A DNA stretch of 29,352 nt from Candidatus Eiseniibacteriota bacterium (GTDB lineage: Bacteria > JAFGKV01): assembly GCA_025453925.1 (NCBI GenBank), contig JALOPK010000006.1, forward strand, positions 1 through 29,352, written 5' to 3'. Under the pieces are notes generated by a model. It was not told the DNA's origin. It saw only the letters and a program-made list of their open reading frames with translations, and ran no database searches. Position 1 is the first letter of the stretch; each line of letters starts with the position of its first letter. Positions 936 through 26,814 of this stretch are shown one piece after another. Both the position numbers and the translations under genes were made by a program.

Positions 936-2180
936 TTACCCCCGGGAGCGCTCCTCGTCGTGCGGCGCCGCGGCGATCACGGCCTCCAGCGTCGGCGGGA
1001 CCGGTGTCGGCATCACGAACGTGCGGCGCAACGAGGCAGCGTCTTTCAGCCCGTGGCCGGTTACCATCGCAACCACACGGTCTGATCTTCCCAGGCGGCC
1101 GCAATCCACGCCGGCAAGGATGCCCGCCACGGATGCCGCGCCGGCCGGCTCTGCCAGTACTCCCGCGTGACGCGCCATGAGCGTCATCGCTTCGCTGATG
1201 AGGGTATCCGGCACCGCCATGATGGCGCCACCGCTGGACCGGGCCGCCCGTAGCGCCTTCACCCAGTCGCGGGGATGCCCCACCGCGATGCTGTCAGCGA
1301 AAGTGGTGGTGGCGTGCCATGGTACGACGTTGGCACGAGCTTCCCACGCCTGGGCGAGCGGCGCGGCTCCCTCGGCCTGCACGCCCATCAGCGCGGGGAT
1401 TTTCCGTATCCATCCCACGGCGGACAGCTCTGACAATCCCTTCCACAGTGCGCCGAAGATGCAGCCGTCTCCCACGCCCACAAACCAGGCATCATCAACG
1501 TCCCAGCTCATCTGGAGGGCAGTCTCCAGTGCCGCGGTCTTCTTCCCCTCGGCGAGCACGGGGTTCACCGCCGTGCTCCGGATGTACCAGCCCTGTCGCG
1601 CGGCGACCTCGGTGGACAGATCGAAGGCCTGATCATACGTACCCTGGATCGGGATGAGGATGCCGCCGTGGAGCGCAATCTGCGCCAGCTTGCCCATGGG
1701 AGCGTCTTGGGGTACCAGCAGAACAGCCCGGCAGCCCGAGGCGGCGGCCAGGGTCGCCAGCGACGATGCGGCATTGCCCGTGGATGCCGCGACGATGGTC
1801 GGACAGCCCCACTCGCCCGCCTGCGCCACGGCCAGGGCCGATGCCCGGTCCTTAAGGGACAGACTGGGAAGAAAGGAATCCAACTTCAGCAGTATCCTGC
1901 CCACGCCGAGGTGATTCGCGAGGCGCGGGGCATCCACCAGAGGAGTGGGCCCGACCGCCAGCCGCGGCAGCGACCCGCCATCGCGAAGGGGCAGGAGCGG
2001 CAACCATGTGGCGAGTCCGCCGGGGGCATCCGGTCGTGCCCACCTTCGGCGCAACGCGGCGAGATCATAGGCGTAGTCGAGGGTGCCGCGATCCGGTCCG
2101 CAGGTGGTGCATGTCATGGCATGCCGCGGCGCCGCGGCCACCCGCTCGCCGCATGAAACGCAGACCAGTTCCGTTACCAT
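936..2180 (-). CDS. PLP-dependent threonine-synthase-like enzyme with N-terminal zinc ribbon
   Basis: This is a 414-residue fold-type II PLP enzyme. Residues 7-27 hold a CxxC...CxxC zinc ribbon (C7, C10, C24, C27), as in archaeal-type threonine synthases. The PLP lysine is K110 in SLSLKDRAS, and the phosphate/substrate loop is STGNAASS at 133-140. Later there is GVGDGCIFGALWKG, where classical threonine synthases usually have a G-N-G-G type loop. I chose the ATG at 2180, which overlaps the TAA of the upstream ssnA-like gene within ATGGTAA, implying translational coupling; a GTG-type extension to 2222 lies inside that gene. Neighbours are nucleobase-type oxidoreductases and an aminohydrolase, and no thrA or thrB is present. 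I infer a beta-elimination or replacement on an amino-acid intermediate of that pathway rather than threonine synthesis. The family is secure; the substrate is not. Confidence 0.85.
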   Translation of the reverse strand: MVTELVCVSCGERVAAAPRHAMTCTTCGPDRGTLDYAYDLAALRRRWARPDAPGGLATWLPLLPLRDGGSLPRLAVGPTPLVDAPRLANHLGVGRILLKLDSFLPSLSLKDRASALAVAQAGEWGCPTIVAASTGNAASSLATLAAASGCRAVLLVPQDAPMGKLAQIALHGGILIPIQGTYDQAFDLSTEVAARQGWYIRSTAVNPVLAEGKKTAALETALQMSWDVDDAWFVGVGDGCIFGALWKGLSELSAVGWIRKIPALMGVQAEGAAPLAQAWEARANVVPWHATTTFADSIAVGHPRDWVKALRAARSSGGAIMAVPDTLISEAMTLMARHAGVLAEPAGAASVAGILAGVDCGRLGRSDRVVAMVTGHGLKDAASLRRTFVMPTPVPPTLEAVIAAAPHDEERSRG

Positions 2181-3481
2181 CGCGCCCACAGCCCGCGGGC
2201 CCGGTCCCTGCACGCCGACCATATCCTGCCCGCGTCCAGTTCTACCGGCTCACCCCCGCGCACCAGTTCCCGGCCGCCCGCAACCACACGGTCCACAGGC
2301 GCATCTCCCAATCCGAAGAGTTGGTGGCCCCACCAGTTGTCCGCGGTGAGGGGCGTGGGCGGCTCATACCGGCGTACGACGAGATCCGCCGCGGCGCCCA
2401 CCTCAAGCCGTCCCAGAGTCAGACCGAAGGCCCGGGAAGCCAACGCCGGGTTTCCCTTGCAGTACATATCCTTCACCAGGTTCCACCCCGCGGACGGATC
2501 GCGATGCTCATGGCGGAGCAGGAGCATGGCCGCCATCATCTCCGGGACGGGATCGCTCCCCATGCCGTCGGTGCCCAAGGCGAGGCGGACACCCTCCTTC
2601 GCGCAGGCTGCCAGGTCGGCGGCGCCCACGCCGTTGTTCATGTTGGATCGGGGATTGTGCACGAGAAAGGCATCCGCCCGGGCGATAGCCGTCAGATCAG
2701 GCCCCGAGAGATGCACGCCGTGGACGAGAATGCTCTCCGCCGTCAGGAGGCCTCGGCGTACGAGTCGCGGGAGGATCTCCTCGCCGTACCGCTCTCGGGT
2801 GCGGCTGACGTCGGCCGCGTCCTCCGCCACGTGCACGTGCACGCCCTTGGAGCATCGCTCGGCGACGGTATCGAGGGTGCGGTCATCCAGAGTGAACGAT
2901 GCGTGCAGACCGGTGCGGGCCGCGAGCCAGCCCGGCCGCTGCGCGGCCAGCGCAAATCCCCGTAGATTCTCCTCGACTCCCTCCAGAGCCCCGCGGTGGC
3001 CGTGGCGATCCGTGATCTCGTAGCTCAGAAGCCCCCGGATTCCGATATGGCCCAAGGCCCGGGCGATCTGATCGAGACTGCCTCCGATACAGGAGGGACT
3101 CGCGTGATGGTCAATGATGGTGGTCGTGCCGCACAGCAGAGCGGACAGCGCGCCGCCCATGGCGCTCCAATAGACGTCTTCCAGGTCCATGGCCTGATCG
3201 AGCCGCCACCACAGGTGTTCGAGAACGTCCACGAAGTCCGCCGGCGCACGGGAGGGCGAGAGCCCCCGGGCCAGGAAGCTGTAGAGGTGGGTGTGGGCCA
3301 GAATCTGGCCGGGCAGGATCACCCGGTGGGGCAGGCTGATGCGCTCCTCCACGGCCGGCGGGGCACTTTCGGGGAGGCCCACGTAGGTGATCGTCTCGTC
3401 CTCGACCCCGATGCATCCGCCCTCGATGACCCGGTCTTCGGCGTCATTGGTGATGATGGTGGCGTCAGTGAAAAGCCTCAC
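2174..3481 (-). CDS. ssnA: SsnA-like amidohydrolase-superfamily aminohydrolase
   Basis: This 435-residue protein matches the usual size of SsnA and related metal-dependent deaminases. Metal-site motifs are in the expected order: H63-x-H65 in AHTHLYSF, HVHVAED at 215-221, HGVH at 254-257, and the catalytic Asp D305 in GTDGMGSD. SsnA is a putative aminohydrolase acting on a nucleobase-like or heterocyclic substrate; in enteric and gut bacteria it lies in the purine-degradation cluster beside ygfK. The start is GTG at 3481, sharing GTGA with the stop of the upstream PreA-like gene, with GGAGG seven bases upstream. An in-frame extension to 3547 lies wholly inside that gene and is unlikely. The protein is probably cytoplasmic and co-translated with the PreT/PreA pair. 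Related deaminases (guanine deaminase, atrazine-chlorohydrolase type) are the alternative; linkage to PreT/PreA favours SsnA. Confidence 0.85.
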   Translation of the reverse strand: MRLFTDATIITNDAEDRVIEGGCIGVEDETITYVGLPESAPPAVEERISLPHRVILPGQILAHTHLYSFLARGLSPSRAPADFVDVLEHLWWRLDQAMDLEDVYWSAMGGALSALLCGTTTIIDHHASPSCIGGSLDQIARALGHIGIRGLLSYEITDRHGHRGALEGVEENLRGFALAAQRPGWLAARTGLHASFTLDDRTLDTVAERCSKGVHVHVAEDAADVSRTRERYGEEILPRLVRRGLLTAESILVHGVHLSGPDLTAIARADAFLVHNPRSNMNNGVGAADLAACAKEGVRLALGTDGMGSDPVPEMMAAMLLLRHEHRDPSAGWNLVKDMYCKGNPALASRAFGLTLGRLEVGAAADLVVRRYEPPTPLTADNWWGHQLFGLGDAPVDRVVAGGRELVRGGEPVELDAGRIWSACRDRARGLWARW

Positions 3482-4698
3482 GCCACCGCCTCCATGCGGA
3501 TGCAACCGGCCGGACAGGTCAGCGGGCACAGGCCACACCCGACGCACCGTTCATCGTCCACCACTGGCAGCCGTTCTTCGCTCATCGTAATGGCCCGGTG
3601 TCCGCCGTCGCGACATGCGACGTAGCAGACGCCGCACCGCAGGCAGGCAGTCTCGTCGACGCGGCTGCGCACCTGGCGACGCGGCAGCTCATCGTGCTCC
3701 ACGATGTGGGGGAGGGCTTTCCCAACCATGTCGGCCACTTTGGTGAAGCCCTTGCGGGCCATGTAGCGCGCCAGACCCGAGCACAGGTCGTCGACAATCC
3801 GGAATCCGTGGTGCATCACCGCGGTGCAGATCTGGATGTTCTGCGCCCCTACGGCAAACAGTTCCACCGCGTCGCTCCAGGTCGAGATGCCGCCATTCCC
3901 GCTGATGGGAAGGGACACGTGGCGCGCGATCTCCGCCACGGTCCGCAGCGTGAGGGGCTTGATGGCGGGCCCGGTGAATCCGGAGTAGGTGCCGAACCCT
4001 CCGAGGCTGGGGATGGGAGCGAAGGTCTCGATGTCCACCCCCATGAGCGCCGGCACGGAGTTGGACGCGGTGATGCCGTCGGCGCCGCCGTTCTTCACGG
4101 CGCGCGCGATCTCCGCCACGTCGGCGACCTGAGGGGTGATCTTGATGAGCACCGGCAGGTCGCCCGCGGCCTCCTTGACCCATCCTGTCGCTTTCTCTGT
4201 GGCGGGCGCGGATTGCGCCAGCATGGCGCCGGGCCGTTCACCCATGGAGCCCTGGGGGCAGGAGAAGCTGCACTCGATGAGGTGTGCGCCAGCGTCGCGC
4301 AGGCGCCGCGCCAAGGCTTGCCAGGCTTCCTTGCTGGACCCCATGATGCTGGCGGCGATGAGCTTCGTGGGAAACTCGCGGGAAAGAACCCGAACTCGCT
4401 CTTCCACCGCGTCAATATGGTGTTCGGAGATCAGGTCGATGTTCCCCATGCCGACCAGACGCCGCCCTGCCCACTCCATGGTGGACATCATCGGGTACGC
4501 CAGCGGGACCGGAGTCCCTTCCATGCTGGTGGTCTTCAGCACGACACCCGCCCAGCCCGCCTCGAGCCCTGCCCGGGCCATATCCAGGTCATCAGTGCTG
4601 GGCGCCGCCGACAGGATGAAGGGATTCTCCAGACGGCGTCCGAGGAATACGACCGCGAGGTCCACGGCGGGGAGTGGTCGAACCGGTATGCTTCTCAT
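3478..4698 (-). CDS. PreA-like FMN/Fe-S dihydropyrimidine dehydrogenase family protein
   Basis: This 406-residue protein has the dihydroorotate/dihydropyrimidine dehydrogenase FMN barrel (about 12-310) followed by a ferredoxin tail with two complete [4Fe-4S] motifs (C352, C355, C358, C362 and C385, C388, C391, C395). FMN-site features include K186 in LIKITPQ, N213 in TASNS and GNGG at 267-270. The catalytic loop keeps SCPQG and GER (146-155), but the cysteine that acts as general acid in dihydropyrimidine dehydrogenase (ACGQ in that family) is absent; the loop reads GAMLAQSAPAT. The reaction is therefore probably not standard uracil/thymine reduction. The gene shares ATGA with the end of the upstream PreT-like gene and GTGA with ssnA, so it is tightly coupled to both. 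With the upstream protein it should form a PreT-PreA-type complex passing electrons from NAD(P)H through FAD and Fe-S to FMN. The exact substrate is unknown. Confidence 0.9.
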   Translation of the reverse strand: MRSIPVRPLPAVDLAVVFLGRRLENPFILSAAPSTDDLDMARAGLEAGWAGVVLKTTSMEGTPVPLAYPMMSTMEWAGRRLVGMGNIDLISEHHIDAVEERVRVLSREFPTKLIAASIMGSSKEAWQALARRLRDAGAHLIECSFSCPQGSMGERPGAMLAQSAPATEKATGWVKEAAGDLPVLIKITPQVADVAEIARAVKNGGADGITASNSVPALMGVDIETFAPIPSLGGFGTYSGFTGPAIKPLTLRTVAEIARHVSLPISGNGGISTWSDAVELFAVGAQNIQICTAVMHHGFRIVDDLCSGLARYMARKGFTKVADMVGKALPHIVEHDELPRRQVRSRVDETACLRCGVCYVACRDGGHRAITMSEERLPVVDDERCVGCGLCPLTCPAGCIRMEAVA

Positions 4699-5951
4699 CG
4701 CGCCGCCTCCGTGAGCATGTGGTGGATGGCCCGGGCGGCCCTGAGGCCGTGGGAGGCCGCCGCGACCACCGTGCCCTCCCGGGACACGAGATCGCCTCCG
4801 GCGAACAGCGAGGGCGCCGCGGTCTCCATGCGCTCGCTCACGGGGAGCGTCGCCTTGGATCCCCAGCGCAGATCCACGTCTTCATCACGAGCCGGCGATG
4901 AACCCACCGCGCGGATCACCTCTTCAGCGGGCAATACGAAGTCGAACCCCGGCATGTCTTCGGGAACAGGGCGACGCGCACCCTGATCCACGAGGCGGGT
5001 CCGGCGGCACTGGACCCCTCGGATCCGGCCGGCCTCCACCAGAAGGGCAATCGGCCGCGCATAGTACTCGATGGCCACGCCGCGGGTCGCGGCTTCCTCC
5101 AGTTCCCGCCGCCAGACAGGCATCTCCCGCGGGCCCCGCCGGTACACAAGCACGACCCGGGCCGCGCCCGCGTGGACTGCGGTGAGGGTCACGTCCAGCG
5201 ACACATTGCCCCCGCCAATCACGACCACTTCCTTGCCGGTCAGATCCTTGCCGATGCCGTCGCGCCACTCCCGGAGGAACGCCATCCCGGAGGTCACCAA
5301 CCCTTCCTCATCCGGGATCCCGAGGAGGATGTCCTCGTGGGTGCCCGGGGCGTAGAAGGCGGCCGCATGCGCGGCGAGGATCTCCCTCAGGGAACCCGCC
5401 GCCTGCCCCAGGTGCCAGGCGATCGGAGCGCCGTGCAGCGCGGAGAGATCACGGTCGAGCCGGTCCACGGCGAACCGATCCACGGCCAGGTTGTGACGCA
5501 CGATGCCGCCGGCGGCCGTGTCGCGTTCATACACGTCCACGGCGTACCCAAGGGCCGCCAACTCCCGGGCGCAGGCAATGCCCGCGGGACCACCGCCCAC
5601 CACGGCAACGCGCTTCGATCGTGACGCGGTCCACGTCGGCCACGGCGCATGGGCCGTTTCGGTCACGAAGCGGTGCAACTCCCGGACTCGGATCGGTCCC
5701 TCGACGCCGCGAAGCACGCATGCGCGGGCACAGTACTGCTCATCGGGGCAGATCTCGCCGCAGGTGCTGATGAGCGGATTCGCGCTCCTCACCAGCTCCT
5801 CGGCGCCCTGCGGGTCGGCCCCCCGCAGTCGCGCGATGAACTCGGGGATCGGCACGTGAACGGGGCAGGCGGCGGTACAGGGCGCGTCCCAGCACTGGAG
5901 ACACCGCCAGGCCTCCCGGTGCGCGCCATGGGGGGTGAGTAGGTCGGTCAT
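4695..5951 (-). CDS. PreT/GltD-like FAD, Fe-S NAD(P)H oxidoreductase subunit
   Basis: At 418 residues it is the size of E. coli PreT (about 412). The N-terminus carries two Fe-S cysteine sets as in GltD and dihydropyrimidine dehydrogenase: C17, C20, C25, C29 and C64, C68, C74, C78. An FAD Rossmann motif GGGPAG lies at 119-124, and a second nucleotide-binding motif GGGNVSLD at 246-253 is followed by YRR (270-272), suggesting NADPH preference. The C-terminal FAD-contacting segment is AGGDLVSREGT. The start is the ATG at 5951 because AAGGAGG stands just upstream; a GTG extension to 5972 would place that box inside the coding region. The stop overlaps the PreA-like start by four bases. It is inferred to be the electron-input subunit for the PreA-like protein; together they resemble a split YgfK or dihydropyrimidine dehydrogenase. 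Confidence 0.9.
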   Translation of the reverse strand: MTDLLTPHGAHREAWRCLQCWDAPCTAACPVHVPIPEFIARLRGADPQGAEELVRSANPLISTCGEICPDEQYCARACVLRGVEGPIRVRELHRFVTETAHAPWPTWTASRSKRVAVVGGGPAGIACARELAALGYAVDVYERDTAAGGIVRHNLAVDRFAVDRLDRDLSALHGAPIAWHLGQAAGSLREILAAHAAAFYAPGTHEDILLGIPDEEGLVTSGMAFLREWRDGIGKDLTGKEVVVIGGGNVSLDVTLTAVHAGAARVVLVYRRGPREMPVWRRELEEAATRGVAIEYYARPIALLVEAGRIRGVQCRRTRLVDQGARRPVPEDMPGFDFVLPAEEVIRAVGSSPARDEDVDLRWGSKATLPVSERMETAAPSLFAGGDLVSREGTVVAAASHGLRAARAIHHMLTEAAR

Positions 5952-6015
5952 TGGGCCTCCTTGTCCGGTCACACGGTGAGGAGGAGACCGCCCCCGTCCG
6001 TGTGGCCCTGACTGC

Positions 6016-7719
6016 TCAGTAGGTGAAGGTGCTGCCCCCGATGAACTCCCGGAGCAGGGAGTTCTGCGGCACCTCCTCGGGGAAGATCGGGACGAAGTAA
6101 TCGAGAAACGCCAGCAGCCGATGCGCCTCCGTGTAGGCCGGTGTGTTGCGCGTGACGGTAAGCAGGAAGCGCTGCGCGTATGTCTTCAGCACGGACGTCT
6201 CATATACGAGCGCCGAGTTGAACATCACGTCCGCTTCTTCCTGGTAGGGGAAGATGTATCGGTTCTCCCCCGCGCGCACGCTCGGCCACTGGGTGATGGT
6301 CTGCTCGGCGGAATACCCGCGGAAGAGCCGGTCGCGCACGAGGCGACGGATGAGCCTGCTGTCGGAGGTGAAGATCCGGCTGTGGGAGTCGATGATGAGC
6401 TGGGTAAGAGCGGAGACATAGATCTTGAACTTCGCATCCCGTGCCACCGCCCGGGATATCCGCTCATTGAGGCAGTGAATCCCCTCCATCACCAGCACGT
6501 GATCCGGTTCCAGACGCAAGGGAAGCGCCTTGTCGGCCCTACGCTTGCCCTCGGTGAAGGAGAAGATGGGCGTGGCGACCTCATCGCCGTTCATCAACCG
6601 GGCGAGATCGTCGTTCAGGTAGTCCACATCCAGGGCGTCCAGCGACTCGAAGTTGTAGGTGCCGTCGGGATTTCGCGGCGTCTTCTCGCGGTCTACGTAG
6701 TAGTTGTCCATGCTCAGAGCCACCGGCCGCAGGCCGTTCACTCGAAGCTGAACGGCCAGCCGCTTGGTGAATGTAGTCTTCCCGGACGAGGAGGGCCCTG
6801 CCACGAGCACGAGTCGTATCTTCCCGTGTTCCGCCTCGATCTGATCCGCAATACTGGCGATCTTCTTCTCCTGGAATCCTTCGACCACTCGGATGATCTC
6901 AGCGGTCTCATCGCGCAGCACGGCCGAGTTGAGATCCGCGACATTGTGGATGCCGATCTCCTGGTTCCACGCACGCGTCTCGCGGAACACCGTGAACAGC
7001 TTGTCCTGCCGGCCGCGGCTGGGCCGCATCTGAAACTTCACATCAGGGAATCGAAGGATGGCGCCGTGTTCATAAGCTTCCAGGGCGAATACGCTCACGA
7101 CGCCGGTCGAGGCCGCCAGCGGGCCGTGGAGAATGTCCCGGTACACCCCAAGGTCGATCCACCAGATCTTGGAATGGGGGAGGGTTTGCAGCAGCCTGGC
7201 CTTTTCGGGGTATCCCGAGTGCTGGAACTCCTCGATCGCCTCTTCCACGGCAATCCGGATCGGCACCAAGGGGAGATCCCGCTGGACGATTTCAGTCATG
7301 CGCGCACGGATGCGATCGACATCCGCGTCGGTCAGAGGGTGATCGTCAGGCATGGAGATCTTGAAGAAGTACCCGTGGCCCACTGATTGCCCGACCTCCG
7401 CCCTCGCGCCCGGGAACAACTCCGTGATCGCTTCCAGGAGAATGACGGTAGCCGTGCGACGGTAGATGGACGCTCCGCCTTTGCTGGCATAGTCAACGGT
7501 CTGCACCGTGCAATCGGAAACCAGCTCGTAGTGCAGCCCGGTGAGACGATAGGAAACCAAAGCGCCCAGCGGGGGCAGCGGCCCCGCATGAGGATGATCC
7601 CGAAGCAGCTCCGCTACCGTCGCCCCGTGTTGCGCCGTAATCGTCTCACCGTTGAACATGACCTGGATGGCGCGACAGGGCTTCTCGCCACGTTCGGCGC
7701 CGCGGTCGACGTCGGGCAT
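6016..7719 (-). CDS. Uridine-kinase-family nucleoside kinase with TGS/ThrRS-like N-terminal region
   Basis: This 567-residue protein combines a TGS-like domain (about 18-80, FNGETITAQHGATVAELL) and a threonyl-tRNA-synthetase second-additional-type segment (about 85-180, including SVGHGYFFKI) with a phosphoribulokinase/uridine-kinase domain from about 300. The P-loop is GPSSSGKT at 308-315. It is followed by the DNYYVDREKTP substrate loop near 337 and a VMEGIH Walker-B-like strand near 400. This architecture is known for bacterial nucleoside kinases that phosphorylate a nucleoside from ATP. The ATG at 7719 lies two bases after the stop of the upstream PLP gene, with AGGAG seven bases before it; the longer frame to 7845 lies inside that gene. 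The operon position suggests it acts on a nucleoside or ribosylated intermediate of the same pathway. The substrate base is not visible from sequence. Confidence 0.85.
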   Translation of the reverse strand: MPDVDRGAERGEKPCRAIQVMFNGETITAQHGATVAELLRDHPHAGPLPPLGALVSYRLTGLHYELVSDCTVQTVDYASKGGASIYRRTATVILLEAITELFPGARAEVGQSVGHGYFFKISMPDDHPLTDADVDRIRARMTEIVQRDLPLVPIRIAVEEAIEEFQHSGYPEKARLLQTLPHSKIWWIDLGVYRDILHGPLAASTGVVSVFALEAYEHGAILRFPDVKFQMRPSRGRQDKLFTVFRETRAWNQEIGIHNVADLNSAVLRDETAEIIRVVEGFQEKKIASIADQIEAEHGKIRLVLVAGPSSSGKTTFTKRLAVQLRVNGLRPVALSMDNYYVDREKTPRNPDGTYNFESLDALDVDYLNDDLARLMNGDEVATPIFSFTEGKRRADKALPLRLEPDHVLVMEGIHCLNERISRAVARDAKFKIYVSALTQLIIDSHSRIFTSDSRLIRRLVRDRLFRGYSAEQTITQWPSVRAGENRYIFPYQEEADVMFNSALVYETSVLKTYAQRFLLTVTRNTPAYTEAHRLLAFLDYFVPIFPEEVPQNSLLREFIGGSTFTY

Positions 7720-7721
7720 CC

Positions 7722-9116
7722 TCAACTCCTGGACCCCAGGATCAGGCGGTCGACCTCCGCCACCCTCTGCTGATGCGCAGCCCAGTACTCCAGCGAGAGC
7801 TGGGCATCGAGTTCCCTCACGTCCTTGCCGTGCTGTTCGACCCACGTGTAGTACTTCAGGTGGTGCCAGCGCAATCTCGTTGCCCGGTCACCTTCCTGAA
7901 CCCAATCAGTCTTCTGCCGACGGAAGATGCTCACGAATCTCACTGCGGCTTCAGTCTCGTCCATGGGGCCGTATGTCTCCGCAAGACTTCGCATGACGCT
8001 CTCGTAACGATCCCGGGCATCGGTGCAGACCGTGACCACCAGATCCTTGGGGCCCAGGTTGTAGTACTTCGCGGTCTTGATCGCTCCCAGCACGTTGCAG
8101 ACGCCGCTGATTCCGAAGATTCCCTGCATGCGGGACAGCGCGTCTGCAGGCACGCCATACCGCTGAGCGAGGATCTCGGGACCCGGTGATTCGAGGAGCA
8201 GTTGCAGCCCCTGCTTGCATTCGACATCGTCGATGGCCATCATCGCGTCCATGTTCATCACGTTGTGGATCCAGGTGACATGCTTGTCGCCGATGCCCTG
8301 GATATCGTGTCCGCCGTATCCGTTGTGGATGAGGGTCGGACACTGGATGGGTTCCAGGCCGACGACCAGGGTCTGCGGAGAGACCTGCTTGAGCTTGTCT
8401 CCCGCGCCGATGGTCCCCGCCGAGCCCATGGCGGAGCAGTAGGCAGCCACCGTGCCTTCCCCTACGCCGAGCCGGCACAGTTCCGCGGCCAGTTCGAGGA
8501 TGGTGCTGCCGGTGACGAAGTAGTGAAACCGGTAATTGCCGAACACCTCGAACTGGTTCAAGACCCTCACTCTCTCCGGATCGGCCGCCACCAGTTCCTT
8601 GCACTTGTCGTAGATCTCCTTGACATTGCTCTCGCACCCCGGCGTGAGCACCAGTCGCGCGCCATAGCCCCTGACGATCTTGAATCGTTCCGTGCTCATC
8701 AGCTCGGGAAGGATCACGAGCGAGTCGAACTGCATCCGGCACCCCACCCAGGCGCCGCCAATGCCGTAGTTGCCCGTCGAGGGCCACACCAGCGTGTGCC
8801 GCGCTGGGTCGACCTCGCCGGTGAGTTCTTTCTCCACCAGCACCGCGTACGCGGCGCCCACTTTGTGGGAGCCCGTGGGGAAGTCTCTGCTGTACAGCAC
8901 CGCGATGGGTGCCTCGACTCCGGTGAACTCCTTGGGGAGCAGGAGGTAGGCAATCGAATCATCCGGGGTCCGCCAGGTGATGTTGAACAGATTGATCGGA
9001 TCCATCGGGTCTTCAGTCCGCATGCGCTGGGCGTGCTGCCGTATCCCCGCGGGGATCGTCCACGGGTGGAGCATCTCCTCAAAAGTGGGGCCGATCACCA
9101 GAGAACGTGACGCCAT
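7722..9116 (-). CDS. PLP-dependent fold-type II (cysteine synthase/lyase-like) enzyme
   Basis: This 464-residue member of the PALP superfamily has its likely PLP lysine at K85 (FPTGSHKVGAAYA), a phosphate-binding STGNYGIG at 113-120 and a glycine-rich GSAGTIGAGDK loop near 245. It carries extra N- and C-terminal sequence relative to the roughly 310-residue cysteine synthases. The N-terminal segment DPINLFNITWRTPDD and the aromatic C-terminus (LRWHHLKYYTWVEQHG) look characteristic of a separate subfamily. It lacks the zinc ribbon of the other PLP enzyme in this operon. The ATG at 9116 follows AGGAGG by four bases and is the first gene after the divergent intergenic region. I infer a lyase or beta-replacement enzyme acting on a diamino-acid- or serine/cysteine-like intermediate, filling a role comparable to YgeX (diaminopropionate ammonia-lyase) in ssnA clusters. 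That role is a guess; the superfamily is clear. Confidence 0.85.
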   Translation of the reverse strand: MASRSLVIGPTFEEMLHPWTIPAGIRQHAQRMRTEDPMDPINLFNITWRTPDDSIAYLLLPKEFTGVEAPIAVLYSRDFPTGSHKVGAAYAVLVEKELTGEVDPARHTLVWPSTGNYGIGGAWVGCRMQFDSLVILPELMSTERFKIVRGYGARLVLTPGCESNVKEIYDKCKELVAADPERVRVLNQFEVFGNYRFHYFVTGSTILELAAELCRLGVGEGTVAAYCSAMGSAGTIGAGDKLKQVSPQTLVVGLEPIQCPTLIHNGYGGHDIQGIGDKHVTWIHNVMNMDAMMAIDDVECKQGLQLLLESPGPEILAQRYGVPADALSRMQGIFGISGVCNVLGAIKTAKYYNLGPKDLVVTVCTDARDRYESVMRSLAETYGPMDETEAAVRFVSIFRRQKTDWVQEGDRATRLRWHHLKYYTWVEQHGKDVRELDAQLSLEYWAAHQQRVAEVDRLILGSRS

Positions 9117-13835: not shown

Positions 13836-15137
13836 GTGCGCCGCGCCTCGGCAAACCTGAACACGCCGTCCGGGGCGCCGAAACGGATCCTTGGCGCCCT
13901 CGTGCTCATGGCGGCCGCGGGATTTCACTGGCTGGCGTGGGTCCGTGCCGGATCGGGCAGTCTGAACTGGGGCACCTGGTTCTACCATGGGGCGTGGTGG
14001 AGCTACATCGCCGCGTTAAGCGGTGTCCTCTGCCTGGCAGGATGGGACTTGACGGCGGTGTTACGGCGTCTGGTGATCATGCTCCCATGGTCGGTGGTGT
14101 GGTGGCTGGCCTTCGATCTCTACGGCCTGAGGCTCCGGAACTGGTACTACGTGATGGTCCCTCCGGCGGCGGGCGCCAGGTGGCTGGGATACTGGACGGC
14201 GTTTGCCACGGTCATCCCGCTCACCATGCTCACCCACGAAACGCTGCTCGTGGCGGGCCTCTTTCGCGGGGCGAAGTGGCGACCATTCCGGGTGACGCAG
14301 GCGCGACGCAGAGCCCTCACGATGGCGGGCATGGCGTGCTTTGTCTTGCCTCTGGCGCTGCCACGCTGCTTCTATCCGCTCACCTGGCTGTTCGCTCCGG
14401 CGCTGATCGAGCCATGGCTGGTCGGGCGGGGCGTGCCCTGTCTTCTGGCCGAGGTATCGGAAGGGCGTCCCGCCACCTTGCTCCGGCTGCTGGTGACTGG
14501 CCTGGTTGTCGGTGGTCTATGGGAACTCTTCAACCACGGCGCCTCGGGCCGGTGGATCTACACGGTACCCGGATTGGAAAGGGGCAAGCTGTTCGAGATG
14601 CCCGTGCCGGGCTTTCTTGGCTTCCCTCCCTTCGCGGTAGGGACCTATTCGTTCTGGACCTTGACCGCGACCAGACTAGGCATCGCGCCCGGCCTGAGTT
14701 CGGAGCGGATGGTGCGTCCTTTGCGGAAGGCTGCCGCCTCTCTGGCTCTGACGCTCCCCTTCTGTCTCGCGGGATTCGCCCTTGTGGATCGGGGCACGGT
14801 TCGCTCGCACGCTCCCGTGGCGGGTGATCTGCCTGGGTGGGAGCCGATCATGAGTGCGCGAGGCCGCAGCGCCGAGGAGCTTTGCGCACATGCGGGATCT
14901 CCCCACGTCTCTCCCTCGGTCCGCGACCGCTGGTGCCGGTTGCTGAAGATGGCACATCACCGGGGGATGGGTTTGCCACGGGCCATGGAACTTGAGGCTC
15001 TCGGGATAGCGACCCCAAGTGAACTGCGGCATCAGGAAGCCCGCCAGTTGCTTCGCCGCTGGCCCGGCGCCAACCCGCCGCGGCCCGAAGAGATCGCGGT
15101 GTGGGGGGCGGCCGCACCGGGAGGAAACAGCCGATGA
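13836..15137 (+). CDS. Multi-pass membrane protein with C-terminal helix-hairpin-helix-like domain
   Basis: This 433-residue protein starts at GTG 13836 with AGGAG seven bases upstream. Residues 17-310 hold about eight hydrophobic helices with conserved-looking polar/aromatic signatures between them, notably WELFNHGASGRWIYTVPG near 228-245 and KLFEMPVPGFLGFPPFAVGTY just after. These recur, as I recall, in unnamed membrane proteins of uncultured bacteria. After the last helix (about 300-320), the final 100 residues are soluble. They include LEALGIATPSELRHQEARQLLRRW, typical of helix-hairpin-helix (DUF4332/Cdd1-like) folds. I cannot name the protein's function. Its stop overlaps the next gene's start in ATGA, so it is the first gene of an operon with an FAD oxidoreductase and two GT-C proteins. 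A role in membrane-lipid or glycan modification is inferred from that context only. Confidence 0.8.
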   Translation: MRRASANLNTPSGAPKRILGALVLMAAAGFHWLAWVRAGSGSLNWGTWFYHGAWWSYIAALSGVLCLAGWDLTAVLRRLVIMLPWSVVWWLAFDLYGLRLRNWYYVMVPPAAGARWLGYWTAFATVIPLTMLTHETLLVAGLFRGAKWRPFRVTQARRRALTMAGMACFVLPLALPRCFYPLTWLFAPALIEPWLVGRGVPCLLAEVSEGRPATLLRLLVTGLVVGGLWELFNHGASGRWIYTVPGLERGKLFEMPVPGFLGFPPFAVGTYSFWTLTATRLGIAPGLSSERMVRPLRKAAASLALTLPFCLAGFALVDRGTVRSHAPVAGDLPGWEPIMSARGRSAEELCAHAGSPHVSPSVRDRWCRLLKMAHHRGMGLPRAMELEALGIATPSELRHQEARQLLRRWPGANPPRPEEIAVWGAAAPGGNSR

Positions 15138-16414
15138 ATCGCCTTCCGAACCACGCCGACACGATCGTCATCGGCGCCGGAATCACGGGCCTGTGTCTGG
15201 CGCGGTCCCTGGCGACACAGGGCGTATCCGTCGCGTTGCTGGAAGCGGCGGGCGCCCCTGGAGGGCTGCTGGCGCCCAAGCTTCTCAACGGAGTCAGCGT
15301 TGACTCCTACTACCACCACATCTTCGTGTCCGACCTGCGAACGCGCCGGTTGCTCGATGGCCTTGATTTGACGCGGGCCCTGGCATGGCGGACGACCTCC
15401 GTGTCCCTGCTGGACGAAGCGGGATTCCACCCTCTGACATCCCCGCTGGACATTCTCCGGTTCAAGGAGCTATCCCTGGGGGAGAAGGTGCGGCTGGCCC
15501 TCCTCGTCCGTCACGCCCGCTCCATCGAGCCGGCGGGTCTGGACGATGTCCTCGCGAGGAAGTGGGCGGTTTCGCTGGCCGGGCCGGTTGTCTGGGAGCG
15601 TTTTCTCCGTCCTCTTGTGGAGGCCAAGTTCGGCGCCGCTGCGCCGCGGGTTTCGGCGGCCTGGCTGGCGGGCCGGATCGGGTGCCGCTCAAACCGCGGC
15701 CTGCGCGGCGAGCGGTTGGGCTACCTCACGCCGAGCTTCCACGCCCTCGTCAGCCGCCTGGCCGGCGATCTGGAGCCTGTGCTGTGGTGCAGCGAACCCG
15801 TCGAAGGCATCGTCATTGAAGGCGGCCGCGTCACCGCCGTTTCCGCGGGCACCCAGACCGTCACGTGCCGTGATGTGGTGTTCACCGGCGGGGCGAACGC
15901 CCTGGCAAAGATACTGGCGGGCATGGATGACCTACTCCCCGACCTGGCATCCCTCGCGTTTCAGGGGATCCTCTGCGGCGTCTTTGCCGTTGACTCCCCG
16001 TCAAGAGGGGCCTACTGGACCAATGTGACGGTACCAGGCGCACCCTTCAACATCGTGGTACAGCAGGACCTCCTGGAACCGGTCAAAGGTGGCCGGGGGA
16101 TTGTCTATGCCTCCCGGTATGTCGACCCGGAGACTGCCCGGGCTGCACACCGCGAGCGGGAGCTCGATGCGATGCAGGAAGGATTGCGCGCGTACTTCGG
16201 GATCGACCCCTCCGCCATCTCGGATCGGGAGTTGGCCGTCACTGACGATGCGGGAATCGTGTACGCGACGGGCACCCGTGCCGTGATCGATAGCCTGCGC
16301 CCCTCGGTGAGCGGATTCCACGTGGCCGGCATGCTCACATCGTTCCCCGACCGGAGCATCGAGCAGTCGGTGGCCGGTGCGGAGGACCTGGCGCGGGCCC
16401 TGGCGGGGGCGTAG
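15134..16414 (+). CDS. FAD/NAD(P)-binding amine-oxidase/protoporphyrinogen-oxidase-like flavoprotein
   Basis: This 426-residue flavoprotein begins with a Rossmann FAD motif (VIGAGITGLCLARSL, glycines at 14-19). It ends with a typical C-terminal FAD-binding segment (GMLTSFPDRSIEQSVAGAEDLA, split around residue 405), as in the COG1232 amine-oxidase/HemY-like family. Related proteins occur in cell-surface polysaccharide and lipid clusters, where they act on sugar-lipid or polyprenoid substrates. No heme genes are nearby, so a true protoporphyrinogen oxidase is unlikely. The ATG at 15134 overlaps the previous stop by four bases and has GAGGA upstream; a longer frame from 15101 lies inside the upstream gene. 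Its stop TAG shares one base with the next GTG. The substrate is unknown; co-translation with membrane glycosyltransferase-like proteins suggests an oxidation or isomerisation step in the same product's synthesis. Confidence 0.85.
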   Translation: MNRLPNHADTIVIGAGITGLCLARSLATQGVSVALLEAAGAPGGLLAPKLLNGVSVDSYYHHIFVSDLRTRRLLDGLDLTRALAWRTTSVSLLDEAGFHPLTSPLDILRFKELSLGEKVRLALLVRHARSIEPAGLDDVLARKWAVSLAGPVVWERFLRPLVEAKFGAAAPRVSAAWLAGRIGCRSNRGLRGERLGYLTPSFHALVSRLAGDLEPVLWCSEPVEGIVIEGGRVTAVSAGTQTVTCRDVVFTGGANALAKILAGMDDLLPDLASLAFQGILCGVFAVDSPSRGAYWTNVTVPGAPFNIVVQQDLLEPVKGGRGIVYASRYVDPETARAAHRERELDAMQEGLRAYFGIDPSAISDRELAVTDDAGIVYATGTRAVIDSLRPSVSGFHVAGMLTSFPDRSIEQSVAGAEDLARALAGA

Positions 16415-19861: not shown

Positions 19862-20509
19862 GTGCCCCCTCTGCCCCGGCAGGTCGCCGTGACCGCACGC
19901 GCTCATTCCAGGGACTGCCTGGTCTACGAGTACCGCCCGAACACGCTCTATGTGAACCTCACCAACAGATGCACGAATGAGTGCCTGTTCTGCGCCCGAA
20001 GCGGGGGGGAGTACCGGCTGGGGTGCTTCGACCTCCGCCTGGCTGCCGAGCATCCCGCCGCCGACTACCTGAGTGCCCTCGAGCCTCGGTTCGCCCGTGC
20101 ATCCCTGCCGCGTGAGGTCGTGTTCTGCGGGTACGGGGAGCCAACGCTACGGATCGATGCCCTCATCGAGATAGCCGGCTGGGTGAGGAGCCGGGGCGTC
20201 CCGGTCAGGCTAAACACCAACGGCCAGGCCGAGCTGATTCATCGCACCGATGTCGTTTCGATGCTGGCGGCATGCGTCGACCGCGTGAACGTGTCATTGA
20301 ACGCGCCGGATGGTGCGAGTTACCTCCGGGTGTCCAATCCGGTCGCGGGAGAAGAGTCGTGGCGATGGGTGGTGGGCTTCCTGCGCCGGGCGGTTCGCTC
20401 CCTGCCCGAGGCGTGGGCCTCGGTCGTTGGTGAGGCGCTGACTGCCGAAGAAGTCTCCGCCGCCCGTGAGCTCGCCGGCTTCTGCGGCACCAGACTGCTG
20501 GTGCGGTGA
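19862..20509 (+). CDS. TatD-linked-type radical SAM protein
   Basis: This small radical SAM protein (215 residues from GTG 19862, or 206 from GTG 19889) contains the CxxxCxxC cluster motif in NRCTNECLFCARSG (C37, C41, C44) and a SAM-binding VFCGYGEPT segment (88-95). It also has LNTNGQAELIH and VNVSLNAPD. This combination matches the radical SAM family that is usually encoded beside, or fused to, TatD-type metal-dependent hydrolases. Its substrate is not established to my knowledge. No TatD gene is visible in this window. Neither start has a strong ribosome-binding site, and an in-frame stop at 19835-19837 limits any extension. It follows the GT-C series on the same strand but may be unrelated to it. 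Sequence ends cleanly at TGA with a full SAM-barrel half. Confidence 0.85.
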   Translation: MPPLPRQVAVTARAHSRDCLVYEYRPNTLYVNLTNRCTNECLFCARSGGEYRLGCFDLRLAAEHPAADYLSALEPRFARASLPREVVFCGYGEPTLRIDALIEIAGWVRSRGVPVRLNTNGQAELIHRTDVVSMLAACVDRVNVSLNAPDGASYLRVSNPVAGEESWRWVVGFLRRAVRSLPEAWASVVGEALTAEEVSAARELAGFCGTRLLVR

Positions 20510-23555: not shown

Positions 23556-23853
23556 CCGGAAGCGGACGCGTTCGTTCGAACTCGGACAGCGATTCGCGCC
23601 TGAGTCTTCCCGCGGTCCGCCCAAGCCCTTTCATGGCCATGCGAGGTTTGTTACTGGACAAGGGCGCCCCCCTCCCGCGCCCGGACTGTGGCCTTCCGAC
23701 ATGCCGGGCACACCGTATGCTGAATTCACCGACACCCTGCCACACGGGCGGGCCCTTCTCCCTGAATTGCGGCCGATCGTCCTGTCCGTGTGGTGTGAGT
23801 GGGAAGGCCCGCCCGTCGGCGGGAGGTGAATGGCCCGACCTGGAGGTGAACCC
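23556..23853 (+). other. Intergenic leader before the TonB-receptor gene
   Basis: This stretch of 298 bases has no supported gene. A weak promoter-like pair is present at 23694-23699 (TTCCGA) and 23716-23721 (TATGCT), spaced 16 bp, which would give a leader of about 125 nt. No hairpin with a U-run, riboswitch-like structure or operator repeat could be made out. GGAGGTG just before 23854 is the ribosome-binding site of the receptor gene. Confidence 0.25.
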
Positions 23854-26814
23854 ATGGTCAGAACGGTTCTCGCTTTGGTGATGTGTGGTGCGCTGCTCTC
23901 GACTGCGCATGCGGGCACCACCGGCAAACTCATGGGAAAAGTGCTCGACACCGACACCGGCGAAGCGCTTCCCTACGCCAACGTGATGGTGCGGGGCACG
24001 CAGCTTGGCGCCGCCGCCAACGAGACGGGTGACTACTACATCATCAATGTTCCCGTTGGAGAGTACGTGCTTATCGGCACCATGATGGGTTACCACGACC
24101 TTGAGATGCAGGGGGTGTGGGTCTCTGCTGACCTCACCACCCACATGGACCTGAAGATGACGCAGAAGGTGTTGGAGACGGCGCAGGTCATCGAGGTGAT
24201 CGTCGAGCGGCCCATGGTGGACCGGGGCATCACCGCCAGCACCAAAATCGTGGACGGCGATGTCATCGAGTCCATGCCGGTCTCGGATTTCACGCAGGTA
24301 ATCGCCACTCAGGCGGGGGTGGTTCAGACCGGAGGCCAGCGCTCCGGCGGCATGCATGTGCGGGGAGGCCGCTCTACCGAGATCACCTTCGTGGTTGACG
24401 GCGTGAACACCACCGACCCGGTCACCATGACCAGGGGCATCACAATCGACAACAACGCCATCGCGGAAATGACCGTGGTGGCGGGGGGCTTCAACGCCGA
24501 GTATGGGGAGGCCATGTCCGGCGTGGTCAACATCGTGACCAAGGAGGGGGGCGAGGATATCCACGGGGGCCTCGAGTACTACACCGACGACTTCCTCGGC
24601 ACCGACTACGACTATGGCACCAATGATGCCAACTTCAACCTGGGCGGGCCCATTCCTTTCCTCGGCAGCCGCGCGACGTTCTTCGCGTCGGGCGCCACGC
24701 GGAACACCGATGACCGCGCGCCGAGCATCTTGCCCAAACCCAACAACGACCGCCATCAGAAGAGCGGCGCGGGGAAACTCCGCTTCGCGCTGTCCCCGAC
24801 GGTCAAGCTCGTCCTTTCGGGCAACGCTTCGGAAACCGAGACGCACATCTACAACCATCAGCGGGCCCGGGGTAACTGGATGAAGGATCAGTTCTTCCAG
24901 CGCAACGGGAACAGCCAGCTCGGCGCGACGCTGACCCATTCGATCGGGGCAAGCACGTTCTACACCGTGAACCTCGCGCGCTTCAACACCTACATGAAGT
25001 ACTCCACGCAGGATGGTGCCCACTACACGGACTTCCAGGTCATCGGCCTTGGTCTCCCCTGGGTCGGCGAGGCTGCGGACTCCGTCCAGTATGCCGACGG
25101 GGGCTGGGCCTGGTACGACGTTGAGAACCAGCGTTGGTACGGCGAAGATGGAACCGGCAATCCGATCACGGAGGAGGAAGTCTGGATCCGTTACTACGAG
25201 CGCCAGCTCGACGGGGATGGGAACCCGTGGCTGACCAGGGACGAGAATGGCAACCTCATCTGGGGGACCCTTGCCTATCAACGAGAAGCGTTGAACCGGC
25301 GGTGGTTCGACACGGGCAACTGGGACTATGACGCCGACTCAACGGGGGTCGTGTACACTCCCTTCGATGCCGATGCGTACCTGGCCGAGGTCGAGGCGAG
25401 CCCCCAACACCGGAGCGACCTGTATCGCGGGGACATCCATGGCTGGTATCAGGCCGACCAGGACGAGTTCAACGACTTCTTCTACGACTTCCCCCCATGG
25501 TGGCATGATCGCAACACGACCCACTACACCGCGGACTTCGCGCTGGTGCACCAGCTCGGCCAGCACAACCAGGTCAAAACCGGTGCATTCTTGAGGAAGA
25601 GCACGCTGGAGCTCAAGGACCTGCAGTTCTACAATGACAATCCCTACACCGATCACTACAGACTCAAGCCCACCAATGCGGCGGCCTATCTCCAGGACAA
25701 GATCGAATACGAAGACCTGACCCTGAACGCCGGGCTCAGATGGGACTACTTCAACCCCGCGGCTCGCCACTTCGTCGACATGGAAAGCCTGGACTACGGC
25801 ACCCAGGAAGCCGACTCCAAGCAGCAGTGGAGCCCGCGGCTGGGCTTGTCTTTCGCGGTGAGCGACAGAAGCATCCTGTATGCGTCCTATGGGCACTTCT
25901 TCCAGCCGGTGGAGCTGGGCGAGCTCTATCAGGGTCTCAACGCGGATGTGACGTCGGGACTGCCCCTCCTGGGCAACCCGGATCTCCCCTCGGAGAAAAC
26001 CGTTGCCTACGAGGTGGGCATCCGTCACTCCTTCGACCCCAACCTGGCCGGAGAGGTGACGGCCTACTACAAGGATGTGGAGAACCTCCTGGCGACCAGG
26101 GAGATCATCGCCACCCTCCAGGACAACCCGGTCAACTACACGATCTTCCTCATTGAGGACTTCGCGGTGGTGAAGGGCGTGGACCTCACGCTCACCAAGC
26201 GGGCTACGGAGTCCCTCTCCGGCTCGGTGAGCTACTCCTACCTCGATGCCAAGGGGTCGGGGAGCTCGGCGCGGGAGTTCTACTATCTCTTCCAGGACAC
26301 CGAGACGCCGCTCGTCCGCCGGGAGTACCCGCTTGAGTTCGACGTGACCCACACGTTCCGCGCCAACCTGAATTTCTTCATGCCGCCCGGATTCGGTCCA
26401 TCGATCGTGGGTCTGCGGCCCCTGGCGGACATGAACACCAACCTTCAGTTCAACGTTGCCAGCGGCGCGCCGTATACGCCCACCGACTCGCGGGGCAATC
26501 CGGGAGAGGTCGGGTCACGCCGGCTGCCGTCGAACACGCGGACGGACCTCCGCGTCGACAAAAACCTCGCGGTCGGCCGGCTCCAATTCGGCCTCTTCGC
26601 CGACGTGCGTAACCTCTTCGACAGGGTGAACATCGTGGATGCCTACTCCAGGACCGGCAGGCCCGACGATGACGGCAATCCCCCGACCAGGGAGAGCTAC
26701 GCCAGCGAGGAGCAGTACCGTCGGGCCATCGAGAACTGGCGTGCGTACTGCAAGGATCCTGACAACTACGGCACGCCGCGGACGATCACCGTGGGCGCAA
26801 CGCTGAGCTTCTGA
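23854..26814 (+). CDS. TonB-dependent outer-membrane receptor with carboxypeptidase-regulatory-like domain
   Basis: This 986-residue outer-membrane receptor begins with a signal peptide cleaved after STAHA (about residue 20). A CarboxypepD_reg-like beta domain follows (about 24-105, GKVLDTDTGEALPYANVMVRGT), then a plug domain (about 130-235, with SMPVSDFTQVIATQAGV, HVRGGRSTEI and VVNIVTKEGG) and a 22-strand-type barrel ending in the aromatic TLSF. The region 390-560 is an unusually large W/Y/D-rich insertion with a calcium-loop-like DGDGNPWLTRDENGN. The ATG at 23854 follows GGAGGTG; an alternative ATG at 23830 has no better support. It imports or binds a large ligand using TonB energy. The downstream secreted FN3-type gene begins 41 bases later, so the two likely form a surface complex. 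The ligand is unknown. Confidence 0.9.
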   Translation: MVRTVLALVMCGALLSTAHAGTTGKLMGKVLDTDTGEALPYANVMVRGTQLGAAANETGDYYIINVPVGEYVLIGTMMGYHDLEMQGVWVSADLTTHMDLKMTQKVLETAQVIEVIVERPMVDRGITASTKIVDGDVIESMPVSDFTQVIATQAGVVQTGGQRSGGMHVRGGRSTEITFVVDGVNTTDPVTMTRGITIDNNAIAEMTVVAGGFNAEYGEAMSGVVNIVTKEGGEDIHGGLEYYTDDFLGTDYDYGTNDANFNLGGPIPFLGSRATFFASGATRNTDDRAPSILPKPNNDRHQKSGAGKLRFALSPTVKLVLSGNASETETHIYNHQRARGNWMKDQFFQRNGNSQLGATLTHSIGASTFYTVNLARFNTYMKYSTQDGAHYTDFQVIGLGLPWVGEAADSVQYADGGWAWYDVENQRWYGEDGTGNPITEEEVWIRYYERQLDGDGNPWLTRDENGNLIWGTLAYQREALNRRWFDTGNWDYDADSTGVVYTPFDADAYLAEVEASPQHRSDLYRGDIHGWYQADQDEFNDFFYDFPPWWHDRNTTHYTADFALVHQLGQHNQVKTGAFLRKSTLELKDLQFYNDNPYTDHYRLKPTNAAAYLQDKIEYEDLTLNAGLRWDYFNPAARHFVDMESLDYGTQEADSKQQWSPRLGLSFAVSDRSILYASYGHFFQPVELGELYQGLNADVTSGLPLLGNPDLPSEKTVAYEVGIRHSFDPNLAGEVTAYYKDVENLLATREIIATLQDNPVNYTIFLIEDFAVVKGVDLTLTKRATESLSGSVSYSYLDAKGSGSSAREFYYLFQDTETPLVRREYPLEFDVTHTFRANLNFFMPPGFGPSIVGLRPLADMNTNLQFNVASGAPYTPTDSRGNPGEVGSRRLPSNTRTDLRVDKNLAVGRLQFGLFADVRNLFDRVNIVDAYSRTGRPDDDGNPPTRESYASEEQYRRAIENWRAYCKDPDNYGTPRTITVGATLSF

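Follow-up and report, generated by a model that had tools for sequence, protein, structure and literature searches.

A predicted variant of reductive uric acid catabolism with a split reductase and two PLP enzymes in place of YgeX in a Candidatus Eiseniibacteriota bacterium

Introduction

Six co-directional genes on a contig of a Candidatus Eiseniibacteriota bacterium probably encode the middle and final steps of reductive (anaerobic) uric acid breakdown (rough probability 0.7), with a threonine-synthase-like enzyme and a second PLP fold-II enzyme, P0006, replacing YgeX. The threonine-synthase-like protein P0001 and its group are referred to here as ThrS*. In the published pathway, urate is converted to 2,8-dioxopurine by XdhD, followed by reduction by YgfK or UacX and the successive action of SsnA, HyuA, YgeW/UacY, YgeY, and YgeX, which leads to pyruvate (PMC12507026). 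This pathway was solved and published in 2025, and the survey in that work marks the terminal enzyme by the PLP domain PF00291 (PMC12507026), which is generic, so that the survey cannot separate YgeX from the ThrS* and P0006 families.

The pathway is therefore of a known kind, and what is apparently new is a recurrent, undescribed terminal module together with a split variant of the reductase; literature searches on the P0006/ThrS* PLP pair returned nothing. As in E. coli, C. difficile, and C. sporogenes, where uric acid is degraded reductively (PMC12507026, PMC12990295), the system contains SsnA and a predicted NAD(P)H-type reductase with YgfK-like halves, and XdhD/YgfM and YgeY genes, together with YgeW-like and HyuA-like candidates, are found in the source or sister genomes. 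It differs from that pathway in the splitting of YgfK, the replacement of YgeX by ThrS* and P0006, the dispersal of the genes, and the presence of an additional kinase. The proposal of the first-pass annotation, a variant ygfK/ssnA/ygeX cluster, is supported. The reactions assigned below to proteins of the window are predictions based on gene content, operon structure, phylogenetic association, and active-site signatures. If they are true, the terminal step in many Chloroflexota, Bacillota, Spirochaetes, and other bacteria would fall to a pair of unstudied enzymes now labelled threonine and cysteine synthases, and purine catabolism in uncultured anaerobes would have to be annotated differently.

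Organization and conservation of the operon

The window, that is, the whole stretch of DNA analysed, is one entire contig of 29,352 bp (G000:C79) from a metagenome-assembled genome (MAG) of 3.9 Mb that is 82% complete (G000). The six genes, all open and all on the minus strand, span positions 936-9116 (Table 1), and their family matches agree with those named in the first-pass annotation. The spacing of mostly 2-7 bp or overlap described there was also confirmed: with refined starts, P0006 and the kinase gene are separated by 2 bp, PreT/PreA and PreA/SsnA each overlap by 4 bp, and SsnA/ThrS* overlap by 7 bp, the sole larger spacing being that between the kinase and PreT (64 bp, or 43 bp with the alternative PreT start). 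A GGAG-type Shine-Dalgarno-like sequence precedes five of the six starts, and scans for promoters and terminators gave no excess over shuffled sequence. Further along the window, plus-strand genes encode a flavin amine oxidase-like protein (15101-16414), a radical SAM domain protein (19862-20509), and a TonB-dependent receptor (23830-26814), which are apparently unrelated to the operon.

Table 1. Positions and assignments of the six operon genes in the window
Gene	Position	Strand	Description
P0006	7722..9116 (start 9116)	-	464 aa PLP fold-II enzyme, CysK/CBS branch; operon gene 1
P0005 kinase	6016..7719	-	TGS/ThrRS-editing-like N-terminus fused to uridine-kinase-like P-loop kinase
P0004 PreT-like	4695..5951	-	FAD/Fe-S subunit; alternative GTG start at 5972
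P0003 PreA-like	3478..4698	-	FMN and 2[4Fe-4S] reductase subunit; N668S, E611D, T737S (pig DPD numbering)
P0002 SsnA	2174..3481	-	Aminohydrolase; SsnA is the best family
P0001 ThrS*	936..2180	-	Threonine-synthase-like PLP enzyme; N-terminal zinc-ribbon-like CxxC pairs

The gene order is not unique to this contig. The identical six-gene order occurs in a congeneric MAG (L021, JAFGKV010000057.1, recorded as Candidatus Fermentibacteria), with protein identities of 87, 83, 77, 86, 71, and 69% in operon order from P0006 to ThrS*. In a second genus (G002:C287, L099), the order kinase-PreT-PreA-SsnA-ThrS* is kept at 60-78% identity without P0006, and conservation in both the congener and the second genus indicates that the order did not arise by chance. 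The P0006 homologue of G002 (45% identity) lies outside the operon on a separate contig, which counts against the main reading.

The kinase was regarded in the first-pass annotation as an addition to the pathway, and this holds insofar as the gene is kept in the operon within the source family; in other phyla it stands alone and therefore does not define the pathway. Homologues with approximately 40% identity occur here and there in those phyla, away from urate genes, and no conserved neighbours were found among 12 loci from those phyla. The kinase thus seems to be an accessory or passenger specific to this lineage. That it is instead a functional member, for instance phosphorylating a nucleoside or a pathway-derived metabolite, is the less probable view, to which its retention in two genera, between P0006 and PreT or heading preTA-ssnA-thrS*, lends some weight, against the lack of urate genes and of any conserved neighbour around the homologues in other phyla. 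The fusion of a TGS and ThrRS-editing-like domain to a uridine-kinase-like kinase is itself widespread in anaerobes, and a literature search for TGS-uridine-kinase fusions found nothing.

Remaining pathway genes and the substrate

The SsnA protein P0002 scores 406/421 bits against curated cut-offs of 455/444, with the next family at 134 bits. The first-pass annotation noted that xdh, ygeW, and hyuA homologues were missing and suggested a search for them elsewhere in the genome. The absence is true of the window, but homologues exist elsewhere in G000, those of hyuA and ygeW scoring below curated cut-offs. XdhC/XdhD-like genes are located at a contig end (C361), where XdhD is cut off, and complete XdhD-YgfM pairs with 37-39% identity to E. 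coli XdhD are present in G001:C97 and G002:C144. A YgeY gene in G000 (C497) scores 473 bits against a cut-off of 321.5, a YgeW-like carbamoyltransferase (G000:C314) reaches 222 of 500 bits (TIGR03316) and is 49% identical to the YgeW of the urate cluster L059, and a hydantoinase (HyuA) candidate (G000:C384) reaches 343 of 393 bits; neither of the latter two genes is clustered with other pathway genes. For YgeX, no TIGR01747 match was found in G000, G001, or G002. Every step of the published pathway except YgeX accordingly has at least a candidate gene in the same or sister genomes; the scattering of these genes over several contigs in G000, the truncated XdhD there, and the sub-threshold scores of SsnA and of the HyuA and YgeW candidates count against the main reading. 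In three family genomes (L083:11804-14589, which is G000:C314; L089; L097), a gene for an NtrC-type response regulator lies next to the YgeW-like gene or overlaps it, the layout being the same in G000, G001, and G002, which suggests regulation of a dispersed pathway.

The first-pass annotation had left the substrate as an unidentified heterocycle, which is not supported, because at least candidate genes for the other uric acid steps, apart from YgeX, are present in the genome and the full urate clusters of relatives carry the same enzymes; uric acid/2,8-dioxopurine is therefore the best-supported substrate. It seems quite unlikely that the same enzyme logic serves another, related purine or N-heterocycle (for instance xanthine, an 8-oxo- or methylated purine, or a xenobiotic): the XDH paralogues differ from E. 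coli XdhD (37-39% identity) and both SsnA and HyuA score below their cut-offs, yet the XdhD/YgfM pair type is present and relatives with full urate-type clusters possess the same enzyme set.

With uric acid as the substrate, an XdhD/YgfM-type hydroxylase encoded elsewhere in the genome would reduce it to 2,8-dioxopurine (yanthine). PreT would pass NAD(P)H electrons to PreA, which would de-aromatise yanthine, and SsnA may trap the resulting dihydro compound by opening its ring to give ureidomethyl-hydantoin. The HyuA-like hydrolase, the YgeW-like carbamoyltransferase, and YgeY, all encoded elsewhere, would then lead to 2,3-diaminopropionate (DAP), the presumed substrate of the terminal module.

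The predicted split reductase

The presence of PreT and PreA beside ssnA supports the view of the first-pass annotation that YgfK is replaced by two subunits. P0004 aligns with the FAD half of YgfK (TIGR03315 positions 441-836), and P0003 exceeds the curated NCBI cut-off for PreA (427 versus 335 bits). For P0003, the roles of the residues compared are those that they have in DPD structures. Compared with pig DPD (1gt8), P0003 keeps Cys671, Asn609, and Asn736, so loss of the catalytic cysteine can be ruled out, while Glu611, Asn668, and Thr737 are replaced by Asp, Ser, and Ser, respectively. These three positions are Glu, Asn, and Thr in all seven pyrimidine dehydrogenases compared (pig, E. coli, and five pyd-operon PreAs), and Ser occupies position 668 in every YgfK, UacX, and PreA-type reductase examined from urate clusters.

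These residues bear on whether the operon degrades pyrimidines, with PreTA as a conventional NAD-dependent dihydropyrimidine dehydrogenase and nucleosides salvaged by the kinase as a uridine kinase. The domain and subunit architecture is indeed that of PreTA and pig DPD, the PreA score and Cys671 are those expected of such an enzyme, and a uridine-kinase-like gene is present in the operon. However, the pyrimidine pocket is altered at the three positions that all seven pyrimidine enzymes keep; the operon contains no dihydropyrimidinase or beta-ureidopropionase and is linked to ssnA rather than to hydA/pydC; the closest PreA relatives outside the family (52% identity) adjoin XDH genes in urate clusters; and the kinase scores 97-98 bits, far below the curated uridine kinase cut-offs of 180-220 bits. 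Pyrimidine degradation is consequently highly improbable. N668S is an independent signature that groups P0003, as a predicted member, with the yanthine reductases despite the PreA name of the NCBI model; if this reading is true, the substitution would serve as a marker separating PreA-type yanthine reductases from pyrimidine dehydrogenases by sequence.

ThrS* and P0006 among fold-II enzymes

ThrS* resembles ThrC most closely in fold and sequence (Z of about 41-44, 34-38% identity to 2zsj, 2d1f, 6cgq, and 1uim). Canonical ThrC proteins, represented by three from the same genomes and four PDB entries, carry the motifs KDRGM, NPxRxEGQKT, VGNAG, and T[ILV]ATAI, whereas all 23 members of the ThrS-like group carry KDRAS, NPx[LTS]xEGKKT, VGDG (AGDG in one), and TxADS[IL]. 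The Arg of NPxRxEGQKT in ThrC binds the substrate phosphate; it is replaced in 23/23 group members, P0001 having NPVLAEGKKT. Homoserine dehydrogenase (PF00742) is absent in G000, G001, G002, and G052 and present in 14/14 controls, so no homoserine phosphate would be available. Threonine biosynthesis is ruled out by the missing dehydrogenase and the replaced Arg, and ThrS* is not a threonine synthase.

P0006 shares its fold with the CysK branch (cysteine synthase, CBS, and O-ureidoserine synthase): the predicted structure (pLDDT 92) matches the CysK/CBS fold with Z of 33-36 at 18-33% identity. It differs from this branch in its extended N- and C-termini, in scores of 125-127 bits against curated CysK models with cut-offs of 351/344, in its linkage to urate clusters, and in invariant motifs of its own. 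The PLP lysine, Lys85, lies within FPTGSHK, and GIGDKHVxWIH and TWVEQ are family signatures, the family also having a C-terminal extension. For both ThrS* and P0006, Foldseek/VIA returned only the general ThrC and CysK folds.

It is extremely improbable that P0001 and P0006 simply make threonine and cysteine as standard biosynthetic synthases and neighbour ssnA/preTA by chance. Their top database names are threonine synthase and cysteine synthase, and three family genomes hold no other gene of either type; against this stand the absent homoserine dehydrogenase and the phosphate-binding Arg replaced in 23/23, the coexistence of canonical ThrC and CysK-like proteins with ThrS*/P0006 in other genomes, and a linkage to urate genes repeated in many phyla. 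In G002, which is 98% complete, the only fold-II enzymes are ThrS*, the P0006 homologue, and one protein of the D-cysteine desulfhydrase type; CysK, TrpB, and ThrC are all missing, which suggests catabolism rather than biosynthesis. CysK, ThrC, and TrpB are likewise not recognisable in G000 and G001, the latter having two unidentified PALP fragments at contig ends. The evidence points to G000, G001, G002, and G052 being amino-acid auxotrophs.

ThrS* is similar to YgeX (TIGR01747; 4d9m, 5ygr) in its position next to YgeY and in profile comparison (hhalign E=3e-18), a strong match of the kind expected within fold II. It differs in that TIGR01747 finds no such protein in the family genomes (at E<=0.001 over G000, P0001 and P0006 included, there was no match) and in its catalytic Asp positions: the two catalytic Asp positions of DAPAL are not conserved in ThrS*, which counts against the main reading. 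In a phylogenetic tree, canonical ThrC forms a supported clade on a long branch, and the monophyly of ThrS* is not established (root support 0.43).

Within the proposed uric acid pathway, ThrS* would most likely be a DAP ammonia-lyase releasing pyruvate and ammonia, and P0006 may act alongside it, perhaps as a DAP racemase, or as a lyase or replacement enzyme working on one of the isomers or on a ureido precursor. The D-specificity described for HyuA and the action of YgeX on both DAP isomers (PMC12507026) allow the guess that the two enzymes share the work, either as racemase plus lyase or as lyases each specific for one isomer. An unlikely but still appreciable possibility is that ThrS* and P0006, rather than just reproducing the chemistry of YgeX, form a two-step branch (for instance racemisation, or beta-replacement of DAP or a ureido precursor) channelling purine carbon and nitrogen into another amino acid such as cysteine, with uric acid as a biosynthetic source in bacteria without CysK and ThrC.

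Distribution of the proposed terminal module across phyla

A scan of 84,980 genomes yielded 61 P0006 loci, whose neighbourhoods were compared with the E. coli ygeW-uacT region. P0006 homologues lie beside SsnA, YgeY, YgeW, XDH, YqeA, HyuA, and YgfK/UacX genes in many phyla, the urate clusters concerned belonging to Chloroflexota, Bacillota, Desulfobacterota, Spirochaetes, Actinobacteria, Proteobacteria, and Lentisphaerae-type MAGs. SsnA, scored as present at >=280 bits (a threshold chosen by us), occurs in 42/55 P0006-positive and 2/25 P0006-negative genomes (Fisher p=1e-8), a p-value that is indicative only, since kinship is ignored and the controls are a spread of unrelated bacteria.

Full urate clusters that contain ThrS* and P0006 and lack YgeX support the statement in the first-pass annotation that YgeX is replaced by two different PLP enzymes. 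They comprise L059 and L061 (XDH-YgeY-YgeW-P0006-HyuA-SsnA-UacX-ThrS*-XDH), L144 (ThrS*-YgeW-YgeY-P0006-SsnA-HyuA-YgfK-XDH), and the Bacillota MAGs G071, G089, and G095, in which ThrS*, HyuA, PreT, PreA (52%), two XDHs, SsnA, and P0006 fall within ~25 kb, YgeY and YgeW being inside that stretch in G071 and G089 and on another contig in G095. Where P0006 is unlinked (G015, G027, G096, G097), ThrS* remains in the urate cluster, beside YgeY/YgeW or just past YgeY-YgeW-YqeA, and thus holds the position of YgeX beside YgeY/YgeW despite the unlinked P0006, for example in G027, G096, and G097; in G031, also with P0006 unlinked, ThrS* shares a contig with SsnA at a distance of ~35 kb. In the P0006-negative genome G024, which has SsnA, YgeX is located beside YgeY near the cluster.

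YgeX exceeds the TIGR01747 cut-off in 5/55 P0006-bearing genomes. The PLP partner of P0006 within the loci is ThrS-like in 17, a family designated c10 in 9, and YgeX in 2, never two together. We take P0006 with ThrS* (or c10) to be a widespread, as yet uncharacterised substitute for YgeX at the last step. The five P0006-positive genomes that also have YgeX, adjacent in two of them (L051, L052), indicate that P0006 is not purely a YgeX substitute. In these two cases, both Clostridium species (L051:8551-11377, L052:8487-11377), the P0006 homologue is divergent from and adjoins an intact YgeX-YgeY-YgeW cluster.

The c10 family is a third PLP fold-II family of ~490 aa with a GSHK motif and a CxxC N-terminus, and it adjoins P0006 homologues in urate clusters (L027:8499, L032:8478, L044:8544, L073:4408, L074:10272, L075:10315, L076:11458, and L078:3019). 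In Chloroflexota urate clusters (L040, L045, L047, L048, L050, L053, and L060; ~13-18.5 kb), putative coenzyme F420 biosynthesis genes and a luciferase-family reductase gene, recognised by eye rather than by HMM, are found beside SsnA, a content that fits the F420-dependent yanthine reductase suggested previously (PMC12507026).
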